DNA of 54,234 bases from an uncultured Alsobacter sp. (GTDB taxonomy: Bacteria > Pseudomonadota > Alphaproteobacteria > Rhizobiales > Beijerinckiaceae), in contig NZ_CAMFHB010000042.1 of the NCBI RefSeq assembly GCF_945952055.1, forward strand, positions 1 to 54,234. Reading direction: 5' to 3'. The notes under the pieces were generated by a model. The model was not told where the DNA came from. It searched no databases and saw nothing but the letters and a program-made list of their open reading frames with translations. The stretch's first letter is position 1, and every line of letters begins with the position of its first letter. Position numbers and translations under genes: made by a program. This document shows positions 23,757-49,221 of the stretch, one piece after another.

Positions 23757-23770
23757 CTAACCACCGTTCA
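23757..23770. promoter_or_regulatory. TetR-type operator candidate (site 1) over the promoter of the 23350-23691 gene
   Basis: The sequence is CTAAC-CACC-GTTCA, a member of the CNAAC-N4-GTTNR family seen seven times in this window. On the minus strand a promoter can be drawn: -35 TTGTGG (23777-23782), a 17-bp spacer and -10 TAGATT (23754-23759). The site overlaps the -10 and the spacer, a position fit for repression. Confidence 0.6.
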
Positions 23771-23846
23771 AAAACACCACAAGCCCCATCGCGCGGCTTT
23801 CCCGTTGCCGCTTGCCAGCCCGCCCCGTTTCCTGTGTCATCGGTTT

Positions 23847-23860
23847 CGAACGACCGTTCG
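23847..23860. promoter_or_regulatory. TetR-type operator candidate (site 2) upstream of the SDR at 23901
   Basis: The sequence is CGAAC-GACC-GTTCG, with perfect 5-bp inverted arms and flanks GGTTT/GGTTA. It sits 40 bp before the SDR start codon and 90 bp from site 1, so the divergent region carries one operator for each direction. I could not fix a convincing -35/-10 pair here. Confidence 0.6.
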
Positions 23861-23900
23861 GTTATCTTGTCGAACGCCACCTGGGGACGGGAGACGCCCG

Positions 23901-24740
23901 ATGACGCAAGCAGCCGGATCGATCGCAGGACGCGCCTATCTCGTGACGGGCGGCGCATCGGGAATCGGCGAGGCCTGCGCCAAGGCGCTGGCCGCGGCCG
24001 GCGCCTCGGTGGGCATCGGTGACCTCGACCCGGAGGCGGCCGCCAGGGTCGCGCGCGAGATTGCGGCGGCGAACGGCCGGGCGGTCCCCCTGCCCTTCGA
24101 CGTGCGCGACGCGGCGGCGACGGCCGCGGCCGTCGAGACGCTAGAGCAGGCCTTCGGCAGGATCGACGGTCTCGTGACCGCCGCCGGCCTGTCCCGCCCG
24201 CGCCCCGCCGAAAGCATGGATGAGGCGACGTGGGATCTCGTCGTCGACACCAACCTCAAGGGAATGTTCCTGTCCTGCCAGGCGGTCGGCCGGCGCCTGC
24301 TCGCCGGCCAGGGCGGCGCCATCGTCAACATCGGATCGGTCAACTCCCTGGGCGGCTTCGCCGGACGGGCGAACTACTGCTCCGCTAAATACGGCGTGGA
24401 CGGGCTGACCAGCGTGCTCGCCATCGAATGGGGCCGGCGGGGCATCCGCGTCAACGCGGTGGCGCCCAACGGCGTGGACACGCCGCTGGTGCGCAAGGGC
24501 ATCCCGCCCGGCTTCGTCTCGAATGTGCTGGAGAACCGGACGCCGCTCGGCCGCATGGGGCGCCCGGAGGAGATCGCCGCGGTGGTGTTCTTCCTGCTGT
24601 CGGACGCCGCATCCTACGTGACCGGCGCCACCATTCCGGTCGACGGCGGCCTCACGGCAGGCTTCTACACCAACGCGCAGGGCGCCGACCTCGCCTCGTC
24701 GTCCCTGCTGGCCTCGGGCGTCTACGCCGAACCCACCTGA
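23901..24740 (+). CDS. Short-chain dehydrogenase/reductase (SDR)
   Basis: A protein of 279 aa, classical SDR. The cofactor motif is TGGASGIG (residues 15-22), with GDLDP afterwards, where the aspartate in the second beta strand favours NAD. The catalytic set is the Ser in NIGSVNSLGG and the Tyr/Lys in YCSAK. It ends with the usual VDGGLTAGFY region plus about 20 extra residues. It oxidises or reduces a secondary alcohol or ketone. An MTQAAGS start with GGGAG 7 nt upstream was chosen over a longer reading. It is the first gene right of the paired operators and precedes the LIV-type transporter. Confidence 0.92.
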   Translation: MTQAAGSIAGRAYLVTGGASGIGEACAKALAAAGASVGIGDLDPEAAARVAREIAAANGRAVPLPFDVRDAAATAAAVETLEQAFGRIDGLVTAAGLSRPRPAESMDEATWDLVVDTNLKGMFLSCQAVGRRLLAGQGGAIVNIGSVNSLGGFAGRANYCSAKYGVDGLTSVLAIEWGRRGIRVNAVAPNGVDTPLVRKGIPPGFVSNVLENRTPLGRMGRPEEIAAVVFFLLSDAASYVTGATIPVDGGLTAGFYTNAQGADLASSSLLASGVYAEPT

Positions 24741-24784
24741 ATCGAGGCCCCGAACGCACGCGGGCGATTGACGCCCCCCAAAAT

Positions 24785-24798
24785 CGAACGTACGTTCA
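24785..24798. promoter_or_regulatory. TetR-type operator candidate (site 3) over the LIV-transporter promoter
   Basis: The sequence is CGAAC-GTAC-GTTCA; its central 12 bases GAACGTACGTTC are a perfect palindrome. A promoter fits across it: -35 TTGACG (24768-24773), 17 bp and -10 TACGTT (24791-24796). The predicted start would leave a leader of roughly 35 nt before the binding-protein ATG. Confidence 0.65.
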
Positions 24799-24841: not shown

Positions 24842-26113
24842 ATGTCCACGACCTTCACGAGACGGCACTTCACCGGTCTTCTTGCTGCGAGCGGCGCGGG
24901 TGCGCTGTCCCTCTCCTCCAAAGGCGCGCGAGCCCAGAGCGGTCCCATCCGCCTCGGCCTGATCTCGCCCCTCAGCGGGTCGCAGGAGATCATCGGCCGC
25001 TACCAGCTGGCCGGCGCGACCATCGCCGTGAACCAGATCAACCAGGCCGGCGGCGTCCTCGGGCGCAAGCTCGAACTCGTGCCGCGCGACGACAAGGCCG
25101 CTCCGGCGGCGGGCGTCGCCGCCTCCAAGGACCTCGTCGGCGCCGGCGTGAACCTCATGTTCGGCGTCCTGTCCAGCGGCGTGGCGCTCGCCATCGCGCC
25201 GACGCTGCAGGGCGACAACGCCGTCCTCGTGCTGTCGGCGGCCTCGGCCAACGAACTCACCCACGACCAGTTCAGCCCCAACCTCTTCCGGATCTCGGAC
25301 CAGGCCTTCATGCGCCAGAGGGCGCTGGCCAGGCTCGTGGCCGCGGACTACCCGGCGATCACCACCTGGACCGCCATCAACCCGCAGACCGCCATCGGGA
25401 CGTCCAACTGGGATTCCTTCGTGGACGGCCTCATGCAGTTCTATCCGGAACTGACGAAGAAGCAGGTCGAGGTCGCGGAGGCGATCTGGGCCAAGTTCGG
25501 CGCGACCGACTACAAGAACGACCTCACGCAGCTGATGCGCCGTTCGTCCGAAGGGCTGTATTGCGGCGTGTACGGCGGCGACGCCGTGACCATGTTCGGC
25601 CAGGCCGCGTCCTATGGCCTGACGAAGAAGTTCAAGGTCATCGTCGATCCGGGCAGCGAGTTCATCATCGCCCAGGCGATGGGCAAGAACACCCCGCCCG
25701 GCCTGTGGTCTGGCTTCCACTGGTATTTCGGCGCGTACAAGGGCCGCAAGATCAACGACGAGCTCTACGACGCCTACGTCAAGCAGACCGGCGACAAGTT
25801 CCCGGCCGGCTACGTGGGCGAGGCTCATGCGGCCGTCCTGGCCTACGCCGCCGCCATCCAGAAGGCGGGCGGCACCGAGACGGCGCAGGTCATCCGCGCG
25901 CTCGAGGGCCTGACCTTCGATACCTGCAAGGGCGAGCGCACGATCCGCAAGGAAGACCACCAGGCCATCTGCGACCTGAACTTCGTGCAGTTCGGCCCCG
26001 ACTCGAGCGACCAGGGCTGGACGGTGACGGGACACAAGGTGATCAAGGGCGCCGACGCCATCGAGCCCCCGACCCCGGGGCAGCCGCTGAAGTTCCAGTA
26101 CAACAAGAAATGA
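24842..26113 (+). CDS. Branched-chain amino acid-type (LIV) ABC transporter substrate-binding protein
   Basis: A protein of 423 aa with a twin-arginine signal (FTRRHFTGLLAASGAGALSL, cleavage near GARAQ at residue 31). The periplasmic-binding fold type I is clear: IRLGLISPLSGSQEIIGRYQ, then GAGVNLMFGVLSSGVALAIA, then ALARLVAADYPAI. The LivK-type hydrophobic pocket cannot be judged by eye. In catabolic islands of this kind, such importers commonly take up aromatic or alicyclic carboxylic acids rather than leucine. GGGAGG precedes the start. It is the first gene of a five-gene transporter unit. Confidence 0.92.
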   Translation: MSTTFTRRHFTGLLAASGAGALSLSSKGARAQSGPIRLGLISPLSGSQEIIGRYQLAGATIAVNQINQAGGVLGRKLELVPRDDKAAPAAGVAASKDLVGAGVNLMFGVLSSGVALAIAPTLQGDNAVLVLSAASANELTHDQFSPNLFRISDQAFMRQRALARLVAADYPAITTWTAINPQTAIGTSNWDSFVDGLMQFYPELTKKQVEVAEAIWAKFGATDYKNDLTQLMRRSSEGLYCGVYGGDAVTMFGQAASYGLTKKFKVIVDPGSEFIIAQAMGKNTPPGLWSGFHWYFGAYKGRKINDELYDAYVKQTGDKFPAGYVGEAHAAVLAYAAAIQKAGGTETAQVIRALEGLTFDTCKGERTIRKEDHQAICDLNFVQFGPDSSDQGWTVTGHKVIKGADAIEPPTPGQPLKFQYNKK

Positions 26114-26120
26114 CGCCGTT

Positions 26121-26145
26121 CCGCCGGGGTCCATGACCCCGGCGG
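26121..26145 (+). other. Strong hairpin between the binding-protein and LivH-type permease genes
   Basis: A perfect 11-bp stem (CCGCCGGGGTC with GACCCCGGCGG) closes on the 3-nt loop CAT, 7 bp after the stop codon, with no T-run following. Hairpins at this place usually protect the upstream binding-protein mRNA or partly stop transcription, giving more binding protein than permease. Confidence 0.65.
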
Positions 26146-26176
26146 ATTCCGTTCGCCCTGATCCCTCGAGGCTGCC

Positions 26177-27064
26177 GTGTTGTCGAGCATCGCCGGCCCG
26201 CTGTTCAACGGGCTCTTCGCGGCCATGGTGGTCTTCCTGTTCGCCAGCGGGCTGACCCTGGTGTTCGGGATCCTGCGCGTCCTCAATTTCGCGCATGGCG
26301 GCCTGTTCATGATCGGCGCCTACCTCGCCTTCACGCTGAGCGGCGTGACGGGCGGGTCGGAGATGGGCGTCCTGCGCTACGTGCTCCTGTGCGCGCTGGC
26401 GGGCGTCGGCCTGGGCATCCTCGGCTGGCTGGTCGAGCGCAGCATCTTCCGGCCGCTGCAGAAGGTGGACGAGGCCTATTCGCTCATCGCCACCTACGCC
26501 CTGCTGCTGATCTGCGAAGGCGCTGTGAAGGCGATCTGGGGCGTGAACTTCCGCAGTGTTCCCACGCCGCCCCTGCTGGCGGACGCATGGATCGCAGGCG
26601 ACGTGGTGATGCCGGTCTACGCGGTCTTCGTCATCGCCGTCGGCGTGGCGTTCTACGCCGCGCTGGAATGGATGCTGCACCACACCCAGACGGGCAAGCT
26701 GATGAAGTCGGTCGCGTCCGACCCCTGGATGGCCGGCAAGCTCGGCGTCAACGTTCCGCGCCTCTACGCCTGGATCGTCATCGCGGGCTTCTTCCTGGCC
26801 GGCGTGGTCGGGGGCCTGCTGCTGCCCAACCAGACCCTTTCGCCCAATCTCGCCAACGCCTTCGTCGTGCAGGCCTTCGGGGCGCTGATCGTTGGGGGAA
26901 TGGGCAACGTGCGCGGCACCTTCCTCGCCGCCATTCTCCTCAGCGTCATCGACAGCTTCGGATCCCTCTACTTCCCCGAAATCCCCGGCCTGTTCTTCTA
27001 CGTGGCGATGGCCATCATGCTCGTGGTGCGCCCGCAGGGCCTCATGGCCGGAGGCAGCCTGTGA
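26177..27064 (+). CDS. livH: LIV-type ABC transporter permease (LivH)
   Basis: A protein of 295 aa with about eight membrane helices and family motifs GLTLVFGILRVLNFAHGGLF and GALIVGGMGNVRGTFLAAIL. The GTG start at 26177 follows GAGG; the next codon, TTG, could also serve. Its stop codon overlaps the start of livM (TGATG). It forms half of the translocation pore. Confidence 0.93.
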   Translation: MLSSIAGPLFNGLFAAMVVFLFASGLTLVFGILRVLNFAHGGLFMIGAYLAFTLSGVTGGSEMGVLRYVLLCALAGVGLGILGWLVERSIFRPLQKVDEAYSLIATYALLLICEGAVKAIWGVNFRSVPTPPLLADAWIAGDVVMPVYAVFVIAVGVAFYAALEWMLHHTQTGKLMKSVASDPWMAGKLGVNVPRLYAWIVIAGFFLAGVVGGLLLPNQTLSPNLANAFVVQAFGALIVGGMGNVRGTFLAAILLSVIDSFGSLYFPEIPGLFFYVAMAIMLVVRPQGLMAGGSL

Positions 27065-28053
27065 TGGAGCCCTCGCCCGCCCAGGCCTCCCCGCTCATGC
27101 GCTTCGGCCTCGCGATGCTGTGCATGGCGGCCTTCCTCGCCCTGCCCGGCATCGCCGACAAGGGAATCGTGTTCCTGGCAGGCACGGTGGCGCTGCAGAT
27201 GGTGTTCGGCCTGACCTGGAACCTGATGTTCGGCCAGACCGGGCTCGTCAGCTTCGGGCACGCGTCCTTCTTCGCCGTCGGCGGCTATGCCTATGCCTAT
27301 GCGGCGCGAGCGTTGCCCCAGGTTCATCCCCTCCTCACCTTCGCCGGCGCCGGCCTCCTGTGCGCGGCGATCGCCGCCCTGGTGGGGCTCATCGCGCTAC
27401 GCCGCTCGCAGGGGGTCTATTTCGCCATCCTGACACTGGCGCTGAGCCAGATCGTCTACCTGGTGATCTCGTCGTCGGCGGCACTCGGCCGCGAGGACGG
27501 CTTCACCGGCATCCGGCGCCCCAAGTTGCCGCTCGGCTGGACGACGATCGATCTGGCCGCGGGCAATGCCTATTACTACTTCATCGTGGTGGTCTCCGCG
27601 CTGCTGGCCGGGATCGTCTGGTGGGTGACGCACAGTCGCGTCGGCCGCGTCTTCCGGGCCATCCAGCAGGACCCCGAGCGCGCCGCCTTCCTCGGCATCC
27701 CCGTGCAGCGCTACCGGCTCATGTCCTATGCCATCGCCTCGGGCGTGGCCGGCGTCACCGGAGCCCTGTTCGGTCCCTGGTTGCAGATCCTGACGCCCGA
27801 GGTGGCCCACTGGACGGCGTCGGCCAGGCCCATCCTCTACACGCTGCTGGGCGGCGTTCACTTTTTCTGGGGTCCCGCCGTCGGGGCGCTGGGCTTCGCG
27901 GTTCTCGAATACGGCACCCGCACCCTGCACGGTATTTCCGAGATCGTGACGGGAGCCATCCTGCTGGCGGTCGTCCTCGCCGCGCCGGGCGGCATCCTCG
28001 GGGCCGTGGCGCGGCTGCGCCAGCGCATAACCGGCAAGGAGCGGCGGCCATGA
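27064..28053 (+). CDS. livM: LIV-type ABC transporter permease (LivM)
   Basis: A protein of 329 aa with family motifs NLMFGQTGLVSFGHASFFAV near residue 55 and GVAGVTGALFGPW plus HWTASARPILYTLLGGVHFF toward the C-terminus. It has about nine hydrophobic segments. The start overlaps livH by 1 bp and the stop overlaps livG by 4 bp, so the order livH-livM-livG is translationally coupled. Confidence 0.93.
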   Translation: MEPSPAQASPLMRFGLAMLCMAAFLALPGIADKGIVFLAGTVALQMVFGLTWNLMFGQTGLVSFGHASFFAVGGYAYAYAARALPQVHPLLTFAGAGLLCAAIAALVGLIALRRSQGVYFAILTLALSQIVYLVISSSAALGREDGFTGIRRPKLPLGWTTIDLAAGNAYYYFIVVVSALLAGIVWWVTHSRVGRVFRAIQQDPERAAFLGIPVQRYRLMSYAIASGVAGVTGALFGPWLQILTPEVAHWTASARPILYTLLGGVHFFWGPAVGALGFAVLEYGTRTLHGISEIVTGAILLAVVLAAPGGILGAVARLRQRITGKERRP

Positions 28054-28832
28054 GCACCCCGTTGCTGGAGGCGACCGGCCTCTTCAAGTCCTACCCCGCC
28101 GTCAAGGTGCTCAAGAACGTCAACCTGACCGTGGCGGGCGGGGACACCTTCGCCATCATCGGCCCCAACGGCGCCGGCAAGACGACCCTGTTCAAGGTGC
28201 TGAGCGGGGAGTTGTTTCCCGACAGCGGACAGGTGGCCCACGAGGGGCGCGACGTCACCACCGTGCCCGCGTGGCAACGCGTGCGGCTGGGCTTCGGGCG
28301 TTCGTTCCAGGTGGCCCGGGTGTTTTCCGACCTGACCACCGAGGACAACGTCGTCGTCTCGGTGGAGGCCCACCGGCGCAATGCCGGGCTGGGGCAGCGC
28401 CGGCCCCTGGCCTGGGCTCCCACGGCCGAGGTCCGCGAGGGCGTGATGGAGACGCTGCGGGAGGTGGGGCTCGTCGACAAGCGCCGGGTCGTGGCGCGCC
28501 TCCTGTCCCACGGCGACAAGAAGCGCCTCGAACTCGCGATGTGCCTGGCCCTGCAGCCGAAGATCCTCATGCTCGACGAGCCCACCGCGGGCATGTCCCC
28601 CGCCGACCGGAAGTCGGCGACAGAGCTCCTCGCGATGGTCAAGGAGCGCCACGGGATGACGATCGTCCTGACGGAACACGACATGGACGTGGTCTTCGGG
28701 CTGGCGACCAAGGTGGCGGTCCTCCATTACGGGGAGATCGTGGCCCAGGGTGCGCCGGACGCCGTGCGCAAGGATCCCCTGGTGCGCGACATCTATCTGG
28801 GCCACGGCGGCGCGGGAGCCGGTCATGCTTGA
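28050..28832 (+). CDS. livG: LIV-type ABC transporter ATP-binding protein (LivG)
   Basis: A protein of 260 aa with Walker A GPNGAGKTT, Q-loop FGRSFQVARVFSDLT, a signature variant LSHGDKKRLELAM (the SHGD form is normal in LivG), Walker B ILMLDEPTAGM and H-loop TEHDMDVVFGLA. It powers the LivH/LivM pore together with LivF. It overlaps livM by 4 bp and livF by 8 bp. Confidence 0.93.
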   Translation: MSTPLLEATGLFKSYPAVKVLKNVNLTVAGGDTFAIIGPNGAGKTTLFKVLSGELFPDSGQVAHEGRDVTTVPAWQRVRLGFGRSFQVARVFSDLTTEDNVVVSVEAHRRNAGLGQRRPLAWAPTAEVREGVMETLREVGLVDKRRVVARLLSHGDKKRLELAMCLALQPKILMLDEPTAGMSPADRKSATELLAMVKERHGMTIVLTEHDMDVVFGLATKVAVLHYGEIVAQGAPDAVRKDPLVRDIYLGHGGAGAGHA

Positions 28833-29529
28833 GGTCGGGCCGCTCGACGCCTTCTACGGCGACAGCTACGTCGTGCAGGGCGTGCGCCTGACGGTCGGAG
28901 AAGGCGAAGGCGTCGCCATCCTCGGACGCAACGGCGCCGGCAAGAGCACGACCATGAAGGCGATCATGGCCGGCGGGCCCCGCGCCGTGGGCCCTGTGCT
29001 CCACCGCGGCACGTCGATCGCCGACCTCGCGGACCATGAGCGCGCCCGCCGCGGGCTCGCCCTGGTGCCGGAGGACCGGCGGATCTATCCGCACCTGACC
29101 GTGGCGGAGAACATCGCCATGGGCCGGCATGCGGCGCGCCCCGGCGCGACGCCGTACACCGTCGAGGAGATCTTCGCCTTCTTCCCGGTCCTGCGCGACC
29201 TGGCGCAGAGGCTCGGCTTCGAGCTGAGTGGAGGCCAGCAGCAATTGCTCGCCGTGGCCCGGGCCGTCGTGGCGCGTCCCGATTGCCTGTTGCTGGACGA
29301 GCCGACCGAGGGGCTCGCGCCCGTCCTCGTCGAGGCGCTGGCGCGCCAGATCGAGCACATCCGATCCGCCGACGGCATGGCGCTCCTCCTCACCGAGCAG
29401 AACGTCTGGTTCGCGCGCAAGAGCACGACGAGGCTCTACCTTCTCGATAGCGGCCGCGTGGTTTTCGAGGGATCCTGGGATGCGTTCGACGCGAGGCCCG
29501 ATCTGCAATCGCGCTATCTCGCCCTGTGA
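28825..29529 (+). CDS. livF: LIV-type ABC transporter ATP-binding protein (LivF)
   Basis: A protein of 234 aa with Walker A GRNGAGKST, the LivF-typical VPEDRRIYPHLTVAENI, signature LSGGQQQLL, Walker B LLLDEPTEGLAP and a terminal TEQN in place of the H-loop histidine segment, which is usual in LivF. The ATG at 28825 lies inside the end of livG. It completes the transporter unit. Confidence 0.93.
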   Translation: MLEVGPLDAFYGDSYVVQGVRLTVGEGEGVAILGRNGAGKSTTMKAIMAGGPRAVGPVLHRGTSIADLADHERARRGLALVPEDRRIYPHLTVAENIAMGRHAARPGATPYTVEEIFAFFPVLRDLAQRLGFELSGGQQQLLAVARAVVARPDCLLLDEPTEGLAPVLVEALARQIEHIRSADGMALLLTEQNVWFARKSTTRLYLLDSGRVVFEGSWDAFDARPDLQSRYLAL

Positions 29530-29571
29530 GCGCGCGACCCGGGACGCCGACCAAGGAGAGACCGCAAGACC

Positions 29572-30309
29572 ATGCCGAACCGTTCACAGGACTTCGCCGA
29601 CCAGGTGGTCGTGGTCACCGGCGCGGCCCGCGGCATCGGCCGCGCCGTAGCCAACGCCTTCGCGCGTGATGGCGCCATCGTGCACGCCTCCGACATCGGC
29701 CCCATCGACGACGCCTCCGCCTTCGCCCACGTCCATCAGTGCGACGTCACCGACCGCGCCAGCGTCGCGCGGATGGCGGATGCCATCCTGAGGACGTCCG
29801 GCCGGGTGGACGTGCTTGTCAACAATGCCGCCGCCGTGACGCCGGCCGCTCCCATCACCGAGCTCGATCCGCAGCAGTGGGACCACGCGATGGCGGTCAA
29901 CGTGACCGGCGTCTTCAACGTCACCCGCGCGGTCCTGCCGGCCATGAGCCGCGGCGCGCGCATCATCAACATCGCATCCACCTTCGCCCATGTCGGGGCG
30001 CCGGCGCGGGTCGCCTACTCCGCGACCAAGGGCGCCGTGCTGGCCTTCACCCGCAGCCTGGCGCTCGATCTGGCTCAGCAGGGCATCCGCGTGGCCTCGG
30101 TCTCGCCGGGCGCGATCGCCACCGACCGCATGGTGACCCAGTTCGGCTCGGTCGAGCAGGCCACCGCGACGATGGGGCCGCTCCATCCGGTCGGGCGACT
30201 GGGCCAGCCGGACGAGGTCGCCGACGCGATCTCGTTCCTGGCCTCGCCGCGCGCGTCGTTCATCACCGGCGCGGACCTGCTCGTGGACGGCGGGTACACG
30301 GCGCGCTGA
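29572..30309 (+). CDS. Short-chain dehydrogenase/reductase (SDR)
   Basis: A protein of 245 aa with cofactor motif TGAARGIG (residues 15-22), ASDIGPIDD after the second strand (Asp favours NAD), structural NNAA, catalytic Ser in NIASTFAHVG and YSATK. The C-terminus has the usual SFITGADLLVDGGYTAR. It lies 42 bp after livF with an AAGGAG box and precedes a CoA-transferase gene, so it may act early on the imported acid or its CoA ester. No sequence feature fixes the substrate. Confidence 0.92.
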   Translation: MPNRSQDFADQVVVVTGAARGIGRAVANAFARDGAIVHASDIGPIDDASAFAHVHQCDVTDRASVARMADAILRTSGRVDVLVNNAAAVTPAAPITELDPQQWDHAMAVNVTGVFNVTRAVLPAMSRGARIINIASTFAHVGAPARVAYSATKGAVLAFTRSLALDLAQQGIRVASVSPGAIATDRMVTQFGSVEQATATMGPLHPVGRLGQPDEVADAISFLASPRASFITGADLLVDGGYTAR

Positions 30310-30379
30310 CCGCCCGCGCGGCGGGCAACGGCATGGGCTCGAGCGGACACGCCCGGGCGGACGGGACGGGGTTTTCGAG

Positions 30380-32010: not shown

Positions 32011-32024
32011 CAAACAGATGTTAG
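32011..32024. promoter_or_regulatory. TetR-type operator candidate (site 4), divergent NIPSNAP/acyl-CoA dehydrogenase region
   Basis: The sequence is CAAAC-AGAT-GTTAG. Seventeen bases here (32011-32027) are the exact reverse complement of 34154-34170 at site 5. A plus-strand promoter is possible: -35 TTGCCG (31998-32003), 18 bp and -10 TAGAAA (32022-32027), with the operator on the spacer and -10. Confidence 0.6.
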
Positions 32025-34156: not shown

Positions 34157-34170
34157 CTAACATCTGTTTG
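34157..34170. promoter_or_regulatory. TetR-type operator candidate (site 5), divergent NmrA-like/EamA region
   Basis: The sequence is CTAAC-ATCT-GTTTG. A plus-strand promoter overlaps it with the same geometry as at site 3: -35 TTGACC (34140-34145), 17 bp and -10 TCTGTT (34163-34168). In both cases the -35 begins 17 bp before the operator and the -10 occupies operator positions 7-12. Confidence 0.65.
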
Positions 34171-39078: not shown

Positions 39079-39085
39079 GGCCGAG

Positions 39086-40752: not shown

Positions 40753-40760
40753 GGACACCC

Positions 40761-42863
40761 ATGGCCCACGCCGATCCTGCCCGGCTCGACGCCCTCTTCC
40801 GCCCGCGGTCGGTCGCCATCCTCGGTGCCTCCGACGATGCGACCCGCATCTCCGGGCGGCCGGTGCGCTATCTCATCGAGGGCGGGTTCAAGGGCGGCAT
40901 CTATCCGGTCAACCCGAACCGCGAGACGGTGCAGGGACTGAAGGCCTACAAGTCGCTCGCCGACTGCCCCGAGGCCCCGGACGTGGCGATCATCGCCGTG
41001 CCGCTGGCGCTGACCGAGGGCGCCGTGCGCGACTGCGTGGCGCGCGGCGTGCGCGGGGCCGTGATCTTCTCGGCGGGCTATGCGGAGGCGGGCGAGGAAG
41101 GCCTGGCGATCCAGAGCCGCATCACGGACATCGCCCGGGCCGGCGGCCTGCGGCTGTTGGGCCCCAACTGCCTCGGCATCTTCAATCCGCGCATCGGCTT
41201 CTTCGGCACCTTCACCCAGTCGCTCGACCGCGAGATGCCCAAGCCCGGCGAACTCGGCATCGTCAGCCAGAGCGGCGCCTACGGCTCGCACATCGCCTAC
41301 CTGGCGCGGCGCCGCGGCATCGGCATCGGCTACTGGATCACCACCGGCAACGAAGCCGACGTGGACGTGTCGGAAGCCATCGAGTGGATGGCCGGGCAGG
41401 ACGACGTCAAGGTCATCATGGCCTATGTCGAGGGAGTGCGGAACGGTCCGCGCTTCCGCGCCGCCCTGGAGCGCGCGAGGGCCAACCGCAAGCCCGTCGT
41501 CATGATCAAGGTCGGCAGGTCCGAGACCGGCGCCAAGGCCGCCTCGTCCCACACCGCCTCCCTCGCCGGCTCCGACGCGGTCTACGACGCGCTGTTCCAG
41601 CAGACCGGCGTCTACCGGGCGACCACCACCGAGGAGCAGATCGACGTCGCCTATGCCTGCATGCGCGGCATCTTCCCGGCGAGCAACCGGCTGGGCGTGG
41701 TGACGCTGTCGGGCGGCGCCGGCGTCCTCATCTGCGACGCCGCCGAGCGTCACGGGCTCGACGTCGCGCCGATGCCGGACGACGCGCAGCGCAAGCTCAA
41801 GGAGCTGCTGCCCTTCGCCTCCGTGACGAACCCGGTCGATACGACCGCGCAGGCCCTCAACGACATGTCGCTGCTCGCCCGCAACATCGAGGTCATCCTC
41901 GAGGAAGGCGGCTACGACGCGCTGATCGGCTTCTTCACCACCGTCCCCAACACGCGGACGCTGTCGGCACCGCTGCGCAAGGCGATCATGGATGGCTGCG
42001 CGCGCTTCTCCGACCGGCTGATCGTGATGGCCATGATCGGCGATCCCGAGGTGGTGCGCGACTACGAGGCCGCCGGCTTCCTCGTCTACGAGGACGCGGA
42101 CCGCGCCGTCGTCGCCATCGCCGCGCTCGCGCGTTTCGCCCAGGCGTTCGCACGGCCCGCCGCGCCCGCGCAGGTGGCCGCGACCGGCCAAGGATCCCTG
42201 CCGAAGGGTCCCGTTTCGGAACCGGACGCCAAGCGCATCCTGTCGGGCGCGGGCGTGCCCTTCCTCGACGAGCGCCTCGCGACCGACGCCGCGGCGGCCG
42301 GAGCCGCCGCCGACGCGATCGGCTATCCCGTGGTGCTCAAGATCGTCTCGGCGGCCATCGAGCACAAGACCGAGATCGGCGGGGTCATGGTCGGCGTGGC
42401 CGACCGCGCCGCGGTCGAGGCCGGCTTCGCCGAACTGCTGCGCCGGGCGGCCCTGCACCGCCCCGACGCGGCCATCGACGGGGTGCTGGTCGCCCCCATG
42501 GCGCGTGGCGGCGTCGAGGTGATCGCGGGTGTCGCGCGCGACCCGGTGTTCGGCCCCGTGGTCATGTTCGGCCTCGGCGGCGTGCACGTGGAGGTGTTGC
42601 GCGACGTGTGCTTCCGCCTCGCACCCTTCGGCCGCGACGAGGCCATGGCCATGATCTCGGGCATCCGCGGCCACGCGCTGCTGGAAGGCGTGAGAGGCGC
42701 CGCTCCCAGCGACGTCGAGGCGCTGGCGGACCTGCTGGTGTCGCTCTCGCGCTTCGCCGCCGCCCATGGGGACGATCTCGAGTCGATTGATCTCAATCCA
42801 GTCCTGGTGCGCCCGCGCGGCGAAGGCGTTGTCGCCCTCGACGCTTTGCTGGTAACCCGCTGA
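40761..42863 (+). CDS. ADP-forming acyl-CoA synthetase (acetyl-CoA synthetase/protein acetyltransferase-like, ATP-grasp)
   Basis: A protein of 700 aa. Order of domains: CoA-binding Rossmann domain (residues about 10-135, FRPRSVAILGASDDATRISG), succinyl-CoA-ligase-like domains (IVSQSGAYGSHIAYLARRRG; phosphohistidine H264 in ASSHTASLAGS), and a C-terminal ATP-grasp domain from about residue 480 (AIGYPVVLKIVSAAIEHKTE, ending SIDLNPVLVRPRGEG). It lacks a GNAT domain, so it is a synthetase rather than a Pat-type acetylase. It couples ATP to ADP + Pi with acyl-CoA formation, or the reverse. Together with two AMP-forming ligases and a CoA-transferase, the island has four routes to CoA esters. Confidence 0.9.
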   Translation: MAHADPARLDALFRPRSVAILGASDDATRISGRPVRYLIEGGFKGGIYPVNPNRETVQGLKAYKSLADCPEAPDVAIIAVPLALTEGAVRDCVARGVRGAVIFSAGYAEAGEEGLAIQSRITDIARAGGLRLLGPNCLGIFNPRIGFFGTFTQSLDREMPKPGELGIVSQSGAYGSHIAYLARRRGIGIGYWITTGNEADVDVSEAIEWMAGQDDVKVIMAYVEGVRNGPRFRAALERARANRKPVVMIKVGRSETGAKAASSHTASLAGSDAVYDALFQQTGVYRATTTEEQIDVAYACMRGIFPASNRLGVVTLSGGAGVLICDAAERHGLDVAPMPDDAQRKLKELLPFASVTNPVDTTAQALNDMSLLARNIEVILEEGGYDALIGFFTTVPNTRTLSAPLRKAIMDGCARFSDRLIVMAMIGDPEVVRDYEAAGFLVYEDADRAVVAIAALARFAQAFARPAAPAQVAATGQGSLPKGPVSEPDAKRILSGAGVPFLDERLATDAAAAGAAADAIGYPVVLKIVSAAIEHKTEIGGVMVGVADRAAVEAGFAELLRRAALHRPDAAIDGVLVAPMARGGVEVIAGVARDPVFGPVVMFGLGGVHVEVLRDVCFRLAPFGRDEAMAMISGIRGHALLEGVRGAAPSDVEALADLLVSLSRFAAAHGDDLESIDLNPVLVRPRGEGVVALDALLVTR

Positions 42864-42880
42864 ACTGTTCCGACTATCCC

Positions 42881-42896
42881 GCCGGCCCGTGCCGGC
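42881..42896 (+). other. Short GC hairpin before the enoyl-CoA hydratase gene
   Basis: GCCGGC, a 4-nt loop and GCCGGC, in the 59-bp gap after the ADP-forming synthetase. There is no T-run; it is probably a processing or attenuation element at most. Confidence 0.25.
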
Positions 42897-42922
42897 ATTG
42901 ACCTGACATCCGGGAGGACGCG

Positions 42923-43723
42923 ATGGGCGTCGACTACTCAGGCTACAAGTACATCGCCTTCTCGCGCACGGACCGCGTGATGACGGTGACGTTCAACCGG
43001 CCGGAAGCCCTCAACGCCATGACGGCCGCCATGCACGAGGAGGCCTCGCGCCTCTTCTACGACCTGGGCCGCGACCACGACATCGACGTCGTCGTGCTGA
43101 CGGGCGCCGGCAAGGCCTTCAGCGCGGGCGGCGACATCGCCGGCATGCGCGAGATGTACGACGACCCCGAGAAGTTCGACCTCGGCATCATGGAAGCCAA
43201 GAAGGTCGTCTTCGGCATCCTCGACTGCGAGAAGATCATCGTGTGCAAGATGAACGGCGACGCGGTGGGCCTCGGCGCCACCATCGCGCTGTTCTGCGAC
43301 ATCATCTTCGCGGCCGACCACGCCCGCATCGGCGACCCCCACGTGCGGGTCGGCCTCGCCGCGGGCGACGGTGGCGCCGTGATCTGGCCGCAGGCGATCG
43401 GCTATGCCCGCGCCAAGGAGTACCTGCTGACCGGAGACCTCATCAAGGCGCCGGACGCGGCGGCCATGGGCCTCATCAACTACGCGGTGCCGGCGGCCGA
43501 ACTCGACGCCCGCGTGGACGCCTTCGTGGCCCGCCTCGCGGCTGGCGCCATGACCTCGATGCGCTACACCAAGACCGCCATCAACATCGGCCTGAAGCAG
43601 CTCGCCCATTCGATGATGGACACCTGCATGGCCTACGAGGCGCTGACCAACCGCACAGCCGATCACCTGGAGGCGATCAACGCCTTCAGCGAGAAGCGCA
43701 AGCCCCGCTTCACCGGCCGCTGA
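42923..43723 (+). CDS. Enoyl-CoA hydratase/isomerase family (crotonase-fold) protein
   Basis: A protein of 266 aa with a crotonase start RVMTVTFNRPEALNAMTAAM, the oxyanion-hole segments GAGKAFSAGGDIAGMRE and GDAVGLGATIALFCD, and the active-site loop GDPHVRVGLAAGDGGAVIWP. By eye the first catalytic Glu of classic hydratases (QPE) is His here, while GDGG keeps an acidic residue nearby, so the exact reaction (hydration, isomerisation or hydrolysis) is uncertain. It starts a block of hydratase, acyl-CoA dehydrogenase, ligase, SDR and acyl-CoA dehydrogenase. Confidence 0.9.
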   Translation: MGVDYSGYKYIAFSRTDRVMTVTFNRPEALNAMTAAMHEEASRLFYDLGRDHDIDVVVLTGAGKAFSAGGDIAGMREMYDDPEKFDLGIMEAKKVVFGILDCEKIIVCKMNGDAVGLGATIALFCDIIFAADHARIGDPHVRVGLAAGDGGAVIWPQAIGYARAKEYLLTGDLIKAPDAAAMGLINYAVPAAELDARVDAFVARLAAGAMTSMRYTKTAINIGLKQLAHSMMDTCMAYEALTNRTADHLEAINAFSEKRKPRFTGR

Positions 43724-43754
43724 GGCCCGCGCGACCGCGCCAGGGAGAACCGCG

Positions 43755-44918
43755 ATGGACTTCGGCGAACCGGAACACGTCGGGATGCTGCGCACGAGCA
43801 TCCGCCGGATGCTCGAGAAGCATGCACCCCGCGAGCTGATGGCTCGCTGGGACGAGGAGGACGCGGTCCCCCGCGCCCTCATGGGCCCCATCGCGGACCT
43901 CGGCGTCTGCGGCATGACCATCCCGGAGGAGTACGGCGGAACGGGCCGGGACATCCTCGCGACGATGGTCACCGTGGAGGAGCTGTCGCGCCGCTCGATG
44001 GTGATCGGCACGCTATACCTCATGAATGCCTGCTACGGCAGCATGAACATCCTGGCGTCCGGCAGCGAGGAGCAGAAGCAGCGGCTGCTGCCGCGCCTGG
44101 CGGCGGGCGAGATCCTGTTCGCCTACGGCCTGTCCGAGCCCGACGTGGGGTCCGACCTGGCGAGCGTGAAGACCAGGGCCGAGCGCCACGGCGACACCGT
44201 CGTCATCAACGGCATGAAGCGCTGGTGCTCCGGCGCCGAGAAGGCCGACTACATCTACGCGCTGGTGCGCTCCGGCGAGCCCGACGCGCGCTACAAGAAC
44301 CTCTCGCTGGTGCTCATTCCCCCCACCGCGAAGGGTGTCACCCTCACCCACATCCCGGCCATGGGCGCGCGCGGCCTGAACACCAACGACGTCGCGCTCG
44401 ACAACGTGGAGATCCCCATCGCCGACGTCATCGGCGGGGAAGAGGGCTGGAACCAGGGCTGGCCCAAGCTGGTGGGCCCGGCGCTAGAGGTCGAGAAGCT
44501 CGAGGTCGCGGCCATGGCGCTCGGCATCGCGGCGCAGGCCGTGGACGACGCCTGGGCGTATTCGCAGCAGCGCAGCCAGTTCGGCCAGCGCATCTGCTCG
44601 CACCAGTCGATCCGCCACATGCTGGCGGACGTGCAGACCAAGCTCGCGGCCGCGCGCCTGATGCTCTACCGGGGCTGCTGGCTCGCCGACAACGACCTGC
44701 CCTGCTCGGTCGAGACGTCGATGGCAAAGATGTATGTCTGCGAGACGGGCCTCGACATCGTGCTGACCTGCCAGAAGGTGATGGGCGCCTACGGCTACGC
44801 GCGCGGCTTCGACATGGAGCGGCACGTGCGCGACATGCTGCTCATGCCGATCATCGGCGGCTCGACGGCGATCCAGAAGAACAACATCGCGAACCGCTTG
44901 GGCCTGCCCAAGCGCTGA
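43755..44918 (+). CDS. Acyl-CoA dehydrogenase with non-canonical C-terminal motif
   Basis: A protein of 387 aa with flavin motifs FAYGLSEPDVGSDLASVKTR and VINGMKRWCSGAEKADYIYA. The C-terminal signature reads LMPIIGGSTAIQKNNIA instead of IYEGTSEIQR, so the MCAD-type Glu is absent. A Glu in ALEVEKLEVAAMALG, the position used by long-chain and isovaleryl enzymes, may be the base. It follows the enoyl-CoA hydratase gene by 31 bp with GGGAG at the start and is followed by an AMP-forming ligase. Confidence 0.9.
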   Translation: MDFGEPEHVGMLRTSIRRMLEKHAPRELMARWDEEDAVPRALMGPIADLGVCGMTIPEEYGGTGRDILATMVTVEELSRRSMVIGTLYLMNACYGSMNILASGSEEQKQRLLPRLAAGEILFAYGLSEPDVGSDLASVKTRAERHGDTVVINGMKRWCSGAEKADYIYALVRSGEPDARYKNLSLVLIPPTAKGVTLTHIPAMGARGLNTNDVALDNVEIPIADVIGGEEGWNQGWPKLVGPALEVEKLEVAAMALGIAAQAVDDAWAYSQQRSQFGQRICSHQSIRHMLADVQTKLAAARLMLYRGCWLADNDLPCSVETSMAKMYVCETGLDIVLTCQKVMGAYGYARGFDMERHVRDMLLMPIIGGSTAIQKNNIANRLGLPKR

Positions 44919-44944
44919 GACGGTCGGGACGGGGGAGGACACGC

Positions 44945-46528
44945 ATGATCGAGACGCTTGGCGACCTGCTGCGCAACAACGCGCACAAGTTTCCGGACGA
45001 GACGGCCTTCGTCTATGCGGACCGGCGGATCTCGTTCCGGCAGCACTTCGACCGTGCCAACCGGCTCGCCTCGGCGATCTGGAAGCGCGGCCTGCGCCGC
45101 CAGGACCGGGTCTCGATCCTGTCGCAGAACACGATCGAGTTCATGGAGACCTACGCGGCCTGCGAGCTCGCCGGCTTCATCGCCGCGACGGTGAACTGGC
45201 GCCTCGCCCCGCCCGAGATCGAGTACATCCTGAACGACTCGACGCCCCGCCTGCTGGTGTTCGAAGCCCAGTATGCCGGTGTGGTGGACCAGATCCGCCA
45301 CAAGCTGCCCCACATAGAGGGGTTCGCCTGCTTCGGCGGCCCGGCGCCGGACTGGGCCATGTCCTACGAGGACCTGCTCGCCGGCGGCGACGGCGAGGGC
45401 GCGCCCAGCCGTCCCCTGCCCGACGAGATCATGCATCTCATCTACACCAGCGGCACCACCGGCCGGCCCAAGGGCGTGATGCGCTCGCACCGAGGCGAGA
45501 TCGCGGTGGCGCAGCTGATGGCCACCGAACTGGGGCTGATCGTCTCCGACCGCCTGCAGCTCATGATGCCGGTGTTCCACGTCGGCTCGCGCTTCCTCCA
45601 GCTCGGCGCCCACCTGCGCGGCGCCACGGTGATCCTCCACCACGACTTCAAGCCCGCCGACATCGTGGCCACCATCGTGCGCGAGAGGGTCACCATGACC
45701 CACATGGCGCCGACCATGGTGCAGGCGGTGCTCGGCGTGCCGGGCATCGAGGAGGCCGATCTCACCTCGCTGCACACCATCTGCTATTCGGCGGCCCCCA
45801 TGCCGGTGCCGCTGCTGCGCCGCGGCCTGAAACTGCTCGGGCCGGTTTTCCTGCAGCTCTACGGGATGACCGAGGGCGGCGGCACCACGCTGCACAAGCG
45901 CCAGCACAAGCCCGACGGCACGCCGGAGGACGTCCGGCGCCTGGGCTCGATCGGCCAGGCCGCGCCGACGGTGGACATCAAGATCGTCGACGACGAGGGG
46001 CGCGAGCTGCCCGTCGGCCAGACCGGCGAGATCCTGACGCGCACGCCGAGCCACATGGTGGGCTACTGGAACAACTCCGCCGCCACGATCGCCGCCTTGC
46101 GGGGCGGCTGGTACCACACCGGCGACCTCGGCATGCTCGACGAGCAGGGGTTCCTGTATCTCGTGGACCGCAAGAAGGACATGATCATCTCGGGCGGGGA
46201 GAACATCTACTCGCGCGAGGTCGAGGAGGCCCTGGCCACCCATCCCTCCGTCCAGGACGTCGCGGTGATCGGCGTCAAGGACGAGTACTGGGGCGAGGTG
46301 GTGCGCGCCATCGTGGTGCTCGCGCCGGGCGGCCAGGCCGCCGAAGCGGAGCTCATCGAGCACTGCAAGACGCAGATCGCCAGCTACAAGAAGCCCAAGT
46401 CCGTCATCTTCACCAGCGAGCTGCCCCGGCTTCCCAGCGGCAAGATCAACAAGGTCGTGCTGCGGCAGGTCCACGGCAGCGCCGCGCCCGCCGGCGGCGC
46501 GGCAAACGAGACGAGGAGCAAGCCATGA
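44945..46528 (+). CDS. AMP-forming acyl-CoA synthetase (FadD/long-chain-fatty-acid-CoA ligase family), paralog 1
   Basis: A protein of 527 aa. The phosphate-binding motif is LIYTSGTTGRPKGVM and the adenylation motif is LQLYGMTEGGGTTLH. It also has YHTGDLGMLDEQGFLYLVDR, then KKDMIISGGENIYSREVEEA, and the C-terminal lysine in LPRLPSGKINKVVLR. It activates a carboxylic acid to the acyl-CoA via acyl-AMP. It closely resembles the second ligase at 50091, sharing the segments NWRLAPPE and THMAPTM. Its stop overlaps the next SDR start by 4 bp. Confidence 0.93.
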   Translation: MIETLGDLLRNNAHKFPDETAFVYADRRISFRQHFDRANRLASAIWKRGLRRQDRVSILSQNTIEFMETYAACELAGFIAATVNWRLAPPEIEYILNDSTPRLLVFEAQYAGVVDQIRHKLPHIEGFACFGGPAPDWAMSYEDLLAGGDGEGAPSRPLPDEIMHLIYTSGTTGRPKGVMRSHRGEIAVAQLMATELGLIVSDRLQLMMPVFHVGSRFLQLGAHLRGATVILHHDFKPADIVATIVRERVTMTHMAPTMVQAVLGVPGIEEADLTSLHTICYSAAPMPVPLLRRGLKLLGPVFLQLYGMTEGGGTTLHKRQHKPDGTPEDVRRLGSIGQAAPTVDIKIVDDEGRELPVGQTGEILTRTPSHMVGYWNNSAATIAALRGGWYHTGDLGMLDEQGFLYLVDRKKDMIISGGENIYSREVEEALATHPSVQDVAVIGVKDEYWGEVVRAIVVLAPGGQAAEAELIEHCKTQIASYKKPKSVIFTSELPRLPSGKINKVVLRQVHGSAAPAGGAANETRSKP

Positions 46529-47277
46529 GCGAACGCGAGACCGCCTTCGTCACGGGCGCCGCCAAGGGCATCGGCAAGGCCATCGTCGAACGGCTGGCCG
46601 GCGAAGGTTACCGCGTCGTCGCGGTCGACCGGCTGGAGGCCGTGCACGACGTAGCCCGCGCGCTCGCCGGGGCGGGACACGCGGTCGAGGCGCAGGTGCT
46701 CGACATCCGCGACAGGGCGGCGATCGGCGCCACCCTGGACCGCCTCGCGCCACTCGACGTCCTCGTCAACAACGCCGCCGTCACCAGCACCTTCCCGTTC
46801 GACGAACTCACGGAAGATCATTTCCGCGAGATGTTCGAGATCAACACGCTGGGCACCTTCGCCGTGGCGCAGGAAGGCGCGCGGCGCATGCGCAACGGCG
46901 GGCGCATCGTCAACATCGCCTCGCGCTCCTTCGCCGGCGCGCCCCAGATGGCCCATTATGCCGCGTCGAAGACCGCGGTCGTCGGCCTGACGCGGGCCAT
47001 GGCCATCGACCTCTCCCCGCGCGACATCCGCGTCAACGCGGTCGCCCCGGGCGTCGTCGACACCGACATGCTCCACTACATGACGCCCGAGCGGCAGAAG
47101 GTGATGCTGAGCCTCCAGCTCCTGGGGCGGATCGGCAAGCCCGAGGACATCGCCCGCGCGGTGTCGTTCCTCGCCTCCCGCGAGAACCACTACATGACCG
47201 GCCATGTCCTCGTGGTGGACGGAGGCCGATCGCTCGGCCAGGGCCAGCTGCCGCCGGAGGAGGACCCGCATGCCTGA
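46525..47277 (+). CDS. Short-chain dehydrogenase/reductase (SDR), paralogous to the one at 53318
   Basis: A protein of 250 aa with TGAAKGIG, VAVDRLEAVH (Asp for NAD), NNAAVTSTFPFDEL, the catalytic Ser in NIASRSFAGAP and YAASK. The C-terminal end reads MTGHVLVVDGGRSLG. The unusual NIASR and VDGGRS-type ends, and DMLHYMTPERQ, are shared with the SDR at 53318 (MFRSLTPERQ), so the two look like duplicates. It overlaps the ligase before it and the acyl-CoA dehydrogenase after it. Confidence 0.92.
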   Translation: MSERETAFVTGAAKGIGKAIVERLAGEGYRVVAVDRLEAVHDVARALAGAGHAVEAQVLDIRDRAAIGATLDRLAPLDVLVNNAAVTSTFPFDELTEDHFREMFEINTLGTFAVAQEGARRMRNGGRIVNIASRSFAGAPQMAHYAASKTAVVGLTRAMAIDLSPRDIRVNAVAPGVVDTDMLHYMTPERQKVMLSLQLLGRIGKPEDIARAVSFLASRENHYMTGHVLVVDGGRSLGQGQLPPEEDPHA

Positions 47278-48427
47278 GCTCAACGAGGAACGGTGGCTCA
47301 TCCGCGACAGCGCCCGCACCTTCACCCGCGAGAAGGTGCGCCCGGTCGCCGACCGGCTCGACCCGGTCAAGGGATCGATCCCGGACGACCTGATCCGGGA
47401 CATGGCCGAGATGGGCTATTTCGGGATCCTCATCCCGGAGGAGCACGGCGGCCTGGGCCTGGGCGCCTTCGAGTATTGCCTCGTGGCGGAGGAGCTGGCG
47501 CAAGGCTGGATGAGCGTCGCCTCGCTCATCGCCCGCGGCAACGGCCTCATCGGCTCGCTCAAGGCGATGACGCCCGAGCAGAAGGCGACCTACCTGCCGC
47601 GCATGGCCGCCGGCGACTTCCTCGGCGCCTTCTCCCTGTCCGAGCCCGACGCGGGCTCGGACGTGGCCGCCATTTCATGCCGCGCCCGGCGCACCGACGA
47701 CGCGTGGGAGATCACCGGCAACAAGTACTGGTGCACCTTCGCGGACGGGGCGGACTTCATCCTCGTCTTCGCCAGGACGCAGCCCGAGGTCGACAACGCC
47801 GCGCGCCACAGGGGCATCTCGGCCTTCATGGTCGAGAAGCCGCGCGGGCAGCTTCCGCAGGGCGTGTCGGGCGCTCCGATCCCCAAGATCGGCTACCACG
47901 GCTGGACCACCTGGGAGCTCGCCTTCGACCGCTGCCGCGTGCCGCTCGGCAACCTGATCGGCGAGGAAGGCCGCGGCTTCTACCTGGCCACGGCGGGTCT
48001 CGAGACGGCACGGGCGCACACCGCCGCCCGGTCGATCGGACTGGCGCAGGCGGCGCTCGACGACGCGGTCGCCTATGCCGGCCAGCGGCGCCAGTTCGGC
48101 GCGCCGATCGGGTCCTTCCAGGCGATCCGCTTCAAGATCGCCGACATGGCCACCCAGATCGAGGCCGCGCGCTCGCTGCTCTACGACGTCTGCACGCGCA
48201 TCGACCAGGGCGTGCGGTGCGACAAGGAAGCCTCGATGGTGAAGCTCTTCGCATCCGAGATGTCGGAGAGGGTGACGAGCGAGGCCCTGCAGATCCTGGG
48301 CGGCGGCGGCTACACCACGCTGAACCAGGTCGAGCGTCACTGGCGCGACGCGCGCCTCACGAAGATCTTCGAGGGCACCTCGGAGATCCAGATGCGGATC
48401 ATCTCCGACCACATCCTCGGCCGCTGA
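47270..48427 (+). CDS. Acyl-CoA dehydrogenase, canonical active site
   Basis: A protein of 385 aa with flavin motifs LGAFSLSEPDAGSDVAAISC and WEITGNKYWCTFADGADFIL. The C-terminal signature is KIFEGTSEIQMRIISDHILG, which retains the MCAD/SCAD-type catalytic Glu. It is the only one of the four dehydrogenases here with that canonical residue, so it probably takes a different acyl chain from the others. A GGAGGAGG box inside the end of the SDR gene drives the ATG at 47270. It is the last gene of the plus-strand run before the convergent TetR gene. Confidence 0.92.
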   Translation: MPELNEERWLIRDSARTFTREKVRPVADRLDPVKGSIPDDLIRDMAEMGYFGILIPEEHGGLGLGAFEYCLVAEELAQGWMSVASLIARGNGLIGSLKAMTPEQKATYLPRMAAGDFLGAFSLSEPDAGSDVAAISCRARRTDDAWEITGNKYWCTFADGADFILVFARTQPEVDNAARHRGISAFMVEKPRGQLPQGVSGAPIPKIGYHGWTTWELAFDRCRVPLGNLIGEEGRGFYLATAGLETARAHTAARSIGLAQAALDDAVAYAGQRRQFGAPIGSFQAIRFKIADMATQIEAARSLLYDVCTRIDQGVRCDKEASMVKLFASEMSERVTSEALQILGGGGYTTLNQVERHWRDARLTKIFEGTSEIQMRIISDHILGR

Positions 48428-48448
48428 GGACCGACACGAACCCGCCGG

Positions 48449-49123
48449 TCAGCGCGATCCGCGCGCGCTTCGCGCCGCGCGCGGACGAACCGGCGCCGCG
48501 GCCTCGACCGCCAGCGTCGGGACGGTCTGCTTGCGCAGGCCGCTGGTGATCAGGCCGGCGAACTCATGGGCCACCTGGTCGATCGAGCGGCCGCCCGGCT
48601 TGTACCACTCCACCGTCCAGTTGAGTGCGCCCAGGATGAACAGGCGCGCCAGGGTGAGGCTCGCATCGTTGCGCAGCTCGCCGTTGCGCTGGGCCCCTTC
48701 CAGGATCTGCTGCCACATGGCGGCGTAGCTGTCGCGCAGCTTGAGGTTCTTGGCGCGGATCGCCTCGGGCACCTGGCCGAACACGCGGCGTGTCGCCAGC
48801 GTGTAGTCGCCGAACTCGATGATGGCCGTGAGATGGGCGCGGACCGCGGTCTCGATCCTGGTGAACCCGTCCGCGTCGTCGGGCAGGCTCGCCATCGCCT
48901 GGCGGACGGAGTCGGTCACGGCAGTGATGCCGATGTCGAGCACGGCCCCGATCAGATCGTCCTTCGACTTGTAGTGATAGTAGATGCTGCCCGCCTGCAG
49001 GTCTGCTTCCTCGGCGATGGCGCGCATCGTGGTCCCGGCATAGCCGTAGTCACGAAAGATCTTGGCGGCCGCGTCCAGCACGCGTTGCTGGGAGTGGGCC
49101 GACTTCGGAAGTTTCTTGGCCAT
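48449..49123 (-). CDS. TetR/AcrR-family transcriptional regulator, likely repressor of the catabolic island
   Basis: A protein of 224 aa. The N-terminal helix-turn-helix spans about residues 12-58: QQRVLDAAAKIFRDYGYAGT, then MRAIAEEADLQAGSIYYHYK. The C-terminal part is an all-helical ligand domain that ends in a basic, Ala/Arg-rich tail. An MAKKLPKSAHS start was chosen; an upstream in-frame extension is basic and lacks a ribosome binding site. It is divergent from the crotonase-ligase-SDR operon at 49.3 kb, with operator site 7 between. Site 7 belongs to the motif family found at six other promoters here, so this is the best candidate for the shared repressor. TetR proteins of this kind (for example PsrA) often sense acyl-CoAs or fatty acids. 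Confidence 0.9.
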   Translation of the reverse strand: MAKKLPKSAHSQQRVLDAAAKIFRDYGYAGTTMRAIAEEADLQAGSIYYHYKSKDDLIGAVLDIGITAVTDSVRQAMASLPDDADGFTRIETAVRAHLTAIIEFGDYTLATRRVFGQVPEAIRAKNLKLRDSYAAMWQQILEGAQRNGELRNDASLTLARLFILGALNWTVEWYKPGGRSIDQVAHEFAGLITSGLRKQTVPTLAVEAAAPVRPRAARSARGSR

Positions 49124-49207
49124 GGGGTCTCTCAGGTGTCCGCGCGACAATACAATCCTTTGCCCGACGGAGGAAACGACCCGGCGCACCGGCGAGCATA
49201 AAAAATT

Positions 49208-49221
49208 CTAACTAGTGTTAG
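49208..49221. promoter_or_regulatory. TetR-type operator candidate (site 7) between the TetR gene and the divergent crotonase operon
   Basis: The sequence is CTAAC-TAGT-GTTAG, with perfect 5-bp inverted arms and A/T-rich flanks. On the minus strand it overlaps a good -10-like TAGAAT (49205-49210). On the plus strand it overlaps TAGGTT (49219-49224), the same -10 as at site 6. It is well placed for autoregulation and control of the 49302 operon. Confidence 0.65.

Follow-up and report, generated by a model that had tools for sequence, protein, structure and literature searches.

Several described TetR-family regulators control pathways that run through coenzyme A (CoA) thioesters. The closest operator that we found is that of PaaR (TTHA0973) of Thermus thermophilus, which controls phenylacetate genes and whose operator consensus is given as CNAACGNNCGTTNG (PMC6651687). 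Here we analyze a 54,234-nucleotide stretch from an uncultured Alsobacter sp. (NZ_CAMFHB010000042.1), which is the entire contig C42 and is hereafter called the window. We consider it highly probable that seven palindromic sites in the window are operators of a TetR repressor (224 amino acids, encoded at 48449..49123 on the minus strand) that would control genes for transport, activation, and beta-oxidation-like steps and is plausibly released by an acyl-CoA. Compared by operator only, site 2 fits the PaaR consensus fully, site 3 fits it except for the last base, and the other five share the AAC-N4-GTT frame but differ at inner positions; in the present sites the inner bases are free and the A/T flanks matter.

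The mycobacterial regulators KstR2, KstR, and BkaR likewise control local regulons of CoA-thioester catabolism from palindromic operators, and KstR2 matches the present TetR over its full length. The KstR operator, TNNAACNNGTTNNA, has an N2 spacer and differs from the present N4 operator; against the NCBIfam KstR equivalog the TetR reaches 30.1 of the 280 bits needed. For BkaR the core of the operator is given as GTTA(N)T(N4)A(N)TAAC (PMC3920632), unlike the present operator, and likewise different are the sites AGCAAGCGCTTGG and CCAAGCGCTTGCT (PMC9973270) of AtuR/RdmA of Pseudomonas, TetR repressors of acyl-CoA-type pathways. AibR (isovaleryl-CoA), MbdR (3-methylbenzoyl-CoA), and FadR of Bacillus are 18 to 21% identical to the present TetR and belong to other pathways. 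Scores against the NCBIfam models for FadR (Bacillus; 58.5 of 200 bits), FasR (45.2 of 330), and AcuR (23 of 247) also fall below their cut-offs. PsrA, also a TetR protein, regulates fatty-acid use and has a repeat of the AAC/GTT type; an earlier note on this DNA had compared the system with it. That comparison did not hold up: the NCBIfam PsrA equivalog, whose name points to Vibrio, gives 45.8 bits where 300 are needed, and 2fbq, which we take to be PsrA, matches profile positions 7-84 only, the DNA-binding part. Searches of open-licence PMC papers turned up no description of this regulon.

Seven sites and their link to the TetR protein

The pattern CNAACNNNNGTTNR occurs in the window only at 23757, 23847, 24785, 32011, 34157, 35198, and 49208. 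These places give 12 strand matches, a number that none of 100 shuffles reached (mean, 1.1; largest, 8), and the consensus palindrome of the predicted operators approximates TTTCTAAC-N4-GTTAGAAA. When genes are called from codon usage, all seven are intergenic, each ahead of one or two gene starts; judged from the order and strand of the genes, they stand at the heads of transcription units that span 23350-54052 and comprise 32 called genes. Site 1 (23757..23770, minus strand; score 22.0 in the matrix described below) lies before the gene of a 113-amino-acid protein and overlaps a -35/-10 region, TTGTGG/TAGATT. Site 2 (23847..23860, plus; 22.7) precedes a plus-strand SDR gene, and site 3 (24785..24798, plus; 24.9) precedes a plus-strand liv binding-protein gene, with a TTGACG -35 element that begins 17 nt upstream. 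Sites 4, 5, and 7 stand between divergent genes: site 4 (32011..32024; 27.5) between those for a NIPSNAP protein (minus) and an acyl-CoA dehydrogenase (plus), site 5 (34157..34170; 31.8; -35 element TTGACC) between those for an NmrA-like protein (minus) and an EamA transporter (plus), and site 7 (49208..49221; 36.3) between tetR (minus) and an enoyl-CoA hydratase gene (plus). Site 6 (35198..35211, plus; 27.3) precedes the SDR gene that heads the run at 35314-48427 and has a TTGTCA -35 and a TAGGTT -10 element. Pattern search and gene calls thus agree with the earlier description of seven CNAAC-N4-GTTNR sites with A/T-rich flanks, placed between genes at unit heads.

The strongest evidence tying the sites to the TetR at 48449-49123 is a motif learned de novo from its relatives. 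A class-wide draw of 385 genomes, in whose selection the motif was not used, added 18 TetR relatives of 39 to 48% identity from 13 genera, one of which supplies four. A Gibbs search of the 200 bp in front of each of these genes, for which a palindrome of width 20 was prescribed but our motif was not used, returned the symmetric 20-mer TTTCTAACGATCGTTAGAAA. The resulting model ranks exactly the seven window sites first, at 12.7 to 19.5, with the eighth place at 4.7 and a maximum of 8.3 in 400 kb of background.

A second test used loci that were closer to our own. A related-locus search gave 45 loci, 28 of which (L024-L051) hold clear TetR relatives of 37 to 81% identity, and a symmetric 24-bp matrix was trained on 41 distinct sites, drawn from a set of 24 of these loci with our own genome excluded. 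Its training sites were picked with our core pattern and a flank filter (one was poor, at 10.6, and some loci, such as L045, yielded none), so the test is independent in data and not in motif shape. The matrix places exactly the seven sites at the top of the window (22.0 to 36.3; next best, 8.7), compared with maxima of 11.1 in ten simulated sequences and 15.6 in 20 stretches of 20 kb (400 kb) from the same genome. Among the 28 loci, 19 (L024-L038, L041-L043, and L045) have a score higher than 15 in the 350 bp that precede the TetR start; among the class-wide loci, 15 of 18 (10 of the 13 genera) score above 18 at 35 to 131 bp upstream. An upstream score above 18 was found at only one of 17 distant TetR loci, L052-L068 (L059, 30% GC). 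The operator tracks the TetR subfamily through differing gene neighborhoods. Separately, a degenerate intergenic site outside the island, at 15646-15659 of the window, scores 8.7 in the matrix and 4.7 in the de novo model and is probably due to chance.

The 14-bp core alone has no genome-wide specificity, and the A/T flanks are needed. The bare core CNAAC-N4-GTTNG occurs at 38 places in the 6.62-Mb genome, versus 35 for its reversed control, and 5 of the 38 fall in the window, which is 0.8% of the genome. The flanked pattern WWHYNAACNNNNGTTNRDWW, a 20-mer derived from the seven sites (whose letters were not used for any motif learned from other genomes), occurs at 9 places, 7 in the window and one each on contigs C67 and C2, and its reversed control at none. 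With up to two mismatches, WWWYCTAACNNNNGTTAGRWWW is found at 8 places (five on C42, two on C67, and one on C2), versus one for the reversed control; the place on C2 has a matrix score of just 11.4. We also counted WWHCNAACNNNNGTTNRDWW in 15 whole genomes that carry a TetR ortholog, taken from the relatives' 28, and obtained hand-summed totals of 109 forward matches and 17 with the reversed control. For 10 of these genomes the places are listed in full; there, the contig that carries the TetR gene (contigs up to 561 kb) accounts for 53 of the 76, and the figure for G679 is 8 of 16.

Across the order, the occurrence of the 20-mer looks like background. It is present in 226 of 297 genomes, with many matches in AT-rich ones, and the 11 listed genomes of the same family, G000 excepted, give 16 forward and 22 control matches (hand sum). 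The TetR itself was found at E<=1e-60 in only two of the 297 (our own genome and G092), and a usable correlation of presence and absence was not obtained. One same-family genome that has no close ortholog carries three AWACAAAC-N4-GTTTGTAT palindromes within 11 kb (G255:C35:68580-79434), perhaps another regulon with a related operator.

A Rhodococcus relative (H20, L137) has a single weak match (19.4) that is not upstream of its TetR gene, and 2 of the 5 matches above 11 on a Polaromonas plasmid (L135) fall inside annotated genes. Plasmids of Roseibium (L136) and Nitratireductor (L138) carry TetR relatives of 44% and 41% identity, the same operator type, and biotin-carboxylase genes in the cluster; the Roseibium cluster also holds an AtuA-family gene, and the AtuR of Pseudomonas uses a different operator. 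The TetR alignment took in 38 of 48 homologs, that of the window included, with near-identical ones and L075 and L081 (stops) among those left out. At five loci (L039, L040, L044, L046, and L077) the recognition-helix region is altered (YYYFGTK, TFAGSIYY) and the upstream operator is absent, possibly a change of specificity. Four others (L075, L081, L087, and L088) carry YYYF too but retain a CTAAT-type site, which counts against a simple rule linking helix and specificity.

Conservation in place and promoter geometry

Synteny of the island extends to many Hyphomicrobiales loci and is partial in Acetobacteraceae; one cultivable relative that carries a syntenic island is Microvirga antarctica (L027). 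In stretches from seven other genomes, each of the seven window sites has a counterpart ahead of the same gene. For sites 4 to 6 it was found in 7 of 7 (L106-L112; L106 starts at site 4), and for site 1 in L107, L109, and L114 as well as in L110, where it falls at a contig end. When sequences were aligned without gaps and anchored on the operator, the operator arms were mostly invariant and the central bases variable, and distant flanks matched the window at 19 to 42% of positions. Upstream of tetR, the 14-mer CTAACACTAGTTAG is invariant in the window and 12 loci (L024-L035, some of them near-duplicates) while the flanks diverge. In three relatives (L109:1384, L110:1987, and L111:4922), the main operator ahead of the SDR gene has a second, weaker operator-like site 35 to 38 bp upstream, and such pairs may be tandem operators.

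The earlier note had drawn -35/-10 pairs at four of the sites, and the two halves fared differently. At site 6, 8 of 8 sequences keep a TTG 12 nt ahead of the operator, and at site 5, 7 of 8 keep one 17 nt upstream, the window included in both counts; by eye, it is also kept 12 nt upstream at site 1 (all 4 sequences that were not cut off) and 17 nt upstream at site 3 (2 of 2). Because the TTG is held at a fixed distance in relatives, the -35 elements are conserved features, and the predicted operator covers the spacer together with the region of the -10 element. By visual inspection, the -10 hexamers are fair at site 1 (TAGATT) and site 6 (TAGGTT), and those at sites 3 and 5 are weak and lack conservation. 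At site 4, a TTG was found at the tested distances in 0 of 7 sequences, yet the site is conserved.

Proposed mechanism and competing explanations

The regulator combines a TetR_N helix-turn-helix with an all-helical C-terminal domain (TetR_C_24), as the TetR family requires, and the locus has the layout of a local-repressor regulon, with a palindrome beside the regulator gene and at target promoters that is conserved with the regulator, apart from the exceptions given below. In the mechanism that we propose, a TetR dimer would bind the palindrome over the -35/-10 spacer or the -10 element, and the bound protein would block RNA polymerase and keep the transport, CoA-activation, and beta-oxidation-like genes off together. 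We infer the binding and the repression, the latter because of the operator-promoter geometry. A pathway intermediate, most likely an acyl-CoA thioester, would then bind the C-terminal domain and release the TetR. An acyl-CoA inducer is plausible because, over its full length, the TetR resembles several CoA-thioester-binding TetR proteins (KstR2, FadR, AibR, and MbdR).

An alternative explanation that leaves operators and repressor unchanged is that the inducer is not an acyl-CoA but a nucleotide, a free carboxylic acid, or some other small molecule. TetR proteins differ in their ligand pockets, and DarR, which binds c-di-AMP, ranks among the closest matches to this TetR in both sequence and fold. 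Against this, the full-length matches FadR and AibR respond to CoA thioesters according to the titles of their database entries, as do MbdR and KstR2 according to the literature (for KstR2, PMC13176608), and many of the controlled genes encode CoA-thioester enzymes. We regard a different inducer as unlikely, though the most credible of the alternatives. The sites could also be operators of another, paralogous TetR, with the neighboring tetR merely one of its targets. Some relatives' genomes do hold several homologs (L028 and L040 share an isolate name), which would allow cross-recognition, but the genome of the window has no other close homolog (next best, 25% identity), none of its 7 other TetR loci carries a site (0 of 7 reach a matrix score of 8; maximum, 7.5), and the operator stays with this TetR subfamily as the gene neighborhood changes. 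We rate a paralogous regulator as very improbable. That the palindromes are promoter parts or chance repeats with no dedicated binding protein, as the overlap of four sites with -10-like hexamers and the background frequency of the bare core would allow, is extremely improbable once it is considered that both arms are mostly conserved while center and flanks vary, that site 4 is kept without the TTG, and that flanked sites concentrate in the island and the motif tracks the TetR subfamily; chance or repeat artefact as such was rejected by the shuffles, the flanked-pattern control, and the matrix and de novo tests.

Several observations do weigh against a TetR regulon operating from all seven sites. 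Among the 28 closer loci, L039, L040, L044, and L046 have no good site upstream of TetR, and in L047-L051, which carry tandem TetR genes, the site precedes the second, matched one by 744 bp. Among the class-wide relatives, L077, L082, and L089 have no good upstream site. L069 has two sites downstream instead. The matrix, built on a GC-rich background, overcalls in AT-rich DNA, e.g., L059. Sites 2 and 3 have one counterpart each (L107:6515 and L107:5542), L107 being the sole fetched stretch that contains their genes. An operator that relatives have before an enoyl-CoA hydratase gene is absent from the window at 42864-42922, before 42923 (no score of at least 5). Finally, as we read the alignment, tetR has a conserved -10-like sequence that is well separated from site 7, on its downstream side; autoregulation of tetR is for this reason uncertain and less clear than control of the divergent gene. 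Taken with these exceptions, comparison across genomes supports the predicted operator identity and coverage of the units, and it backs the regulator and the extent of the regulon over the catabolic island that the earlier note had thought probable.

Predicted targets, probable continuation on a second contig, and significance

Within the window the regulon would span the called units from 23350 to 54052. We infer operon membership for the runs that follow. Site 1 would control the 113-amino-acid protein (23350..23691, minus), which has no Pfam or NCBIfam match; directly downstream lies a gene for a short LuxR-type (GerE) protein (22978-23331), which is possibly cotranscribed with it and hence a regulon member. 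Site 2 would control the SDR oxidoreductase at 23901..24740 (plus; start set by eye, the gene call giving 23943). Site 3 would control a run at 24842..31609 (plus) that encodes a liv-type ABC transporter (binding protein, two permeases, and two ATPases), an SDR, and a family III CoA-transferase. The putative targets of site 4 are the NIPSNAP protein (31629..31940, minus) and the acyl-CoA dehydrogenase (32105..33241, plus), and those of site 5 the NmrA-like reductase (33236..34114, minus) and the EamA transporter (34190..35155, plus). Site 6 would control a 13-gene run (35314..48427, plus) that encodes, in order, two SDRs, two MaoC/FAS1-DH-like proteins, a thiolase, a ChsH2-like OB/Zn-ribbon protein, an acyl-CoA dehydrogenase, an ADP-forming-type CoA ligase, an enoyl-CoA hydratase, an acyl-CoA dehydrogenase, an AMP ligase (44945-46528), an SDR, and an acyl-CoA dehydrogenase. 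Site 7 would control an enoyl-CoA hydratase, an AMP ligase (50091-51644), and three SDR genes (49302..54052, plus). Names come from sequence alone for the permeases, ATPases, and SDR of the site 3 run, for 35314-36069, 43755-44918, and 46525-47277, and for the SDRs of the site 7 run, and from sequence plus a below-cut-off match for 47270-48427. Family and structure matches of the island proteins indicate general enzyme classes only and no particular substrate.

The putative regulon exceeds the window and would continue onto C67. This contig starts with an ABC transporter whose five genes are 80 to 89% identical to genes of the relative L024, and because those matching genes face the last island gene in L024, C67 probably follows C42. 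Predicted operators on C67 lie at 5067 (score 34.3), 5956 (28.1), and 13173 (28.6), the last about 114 bp before a gene for a VanA-type Rieske oxygenase, followed by a ferredoxin gene (L022 13173-14726). The nearest solved structure to the oxygenase is dicamba O-demethylase, and its site suggests that a ring or O-methyl oxidation step belongs to the regulon. The part on C67 would comprise a second ABC transporter of the branched-chain type, a gene resembling enoyl-CoA hydratase, a metallo-hydrolase gene with genes similar to acyl-CoA dehydrogenase and CoA-transferase after it, and the Rieske oxygenase with its ferredoxin.

Systems of this kind are familiar, and the present one is a well-supported if rather ordinary case of gene control. 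Its regulon would tie together some 32 called genes of the window and part of C67, and the operator predicts further genes of the same pathway. It also connects a broad TetR subfamily with one particular DNA site, where 25 listed plasmid records say only TetR/AcrR family or transcriptional regulator. The regulator could become a sensor for the pathway substrate. We give about even chances to a wider proposal, in which this TetR subfamily, spread over Alphaproteobacteria and also present in some Betaproteobacteria, retains a single operator (CTAAY-N4-GTTAG, flanked by A/T) across different acyl-CoA catabolic islands as a portable regulatory tag, and the second ABC transporter and the Rieske oxygenase joined the regulon by gaining it. 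If that is true, the tag could locate unknown catabolic genes genome by genome.

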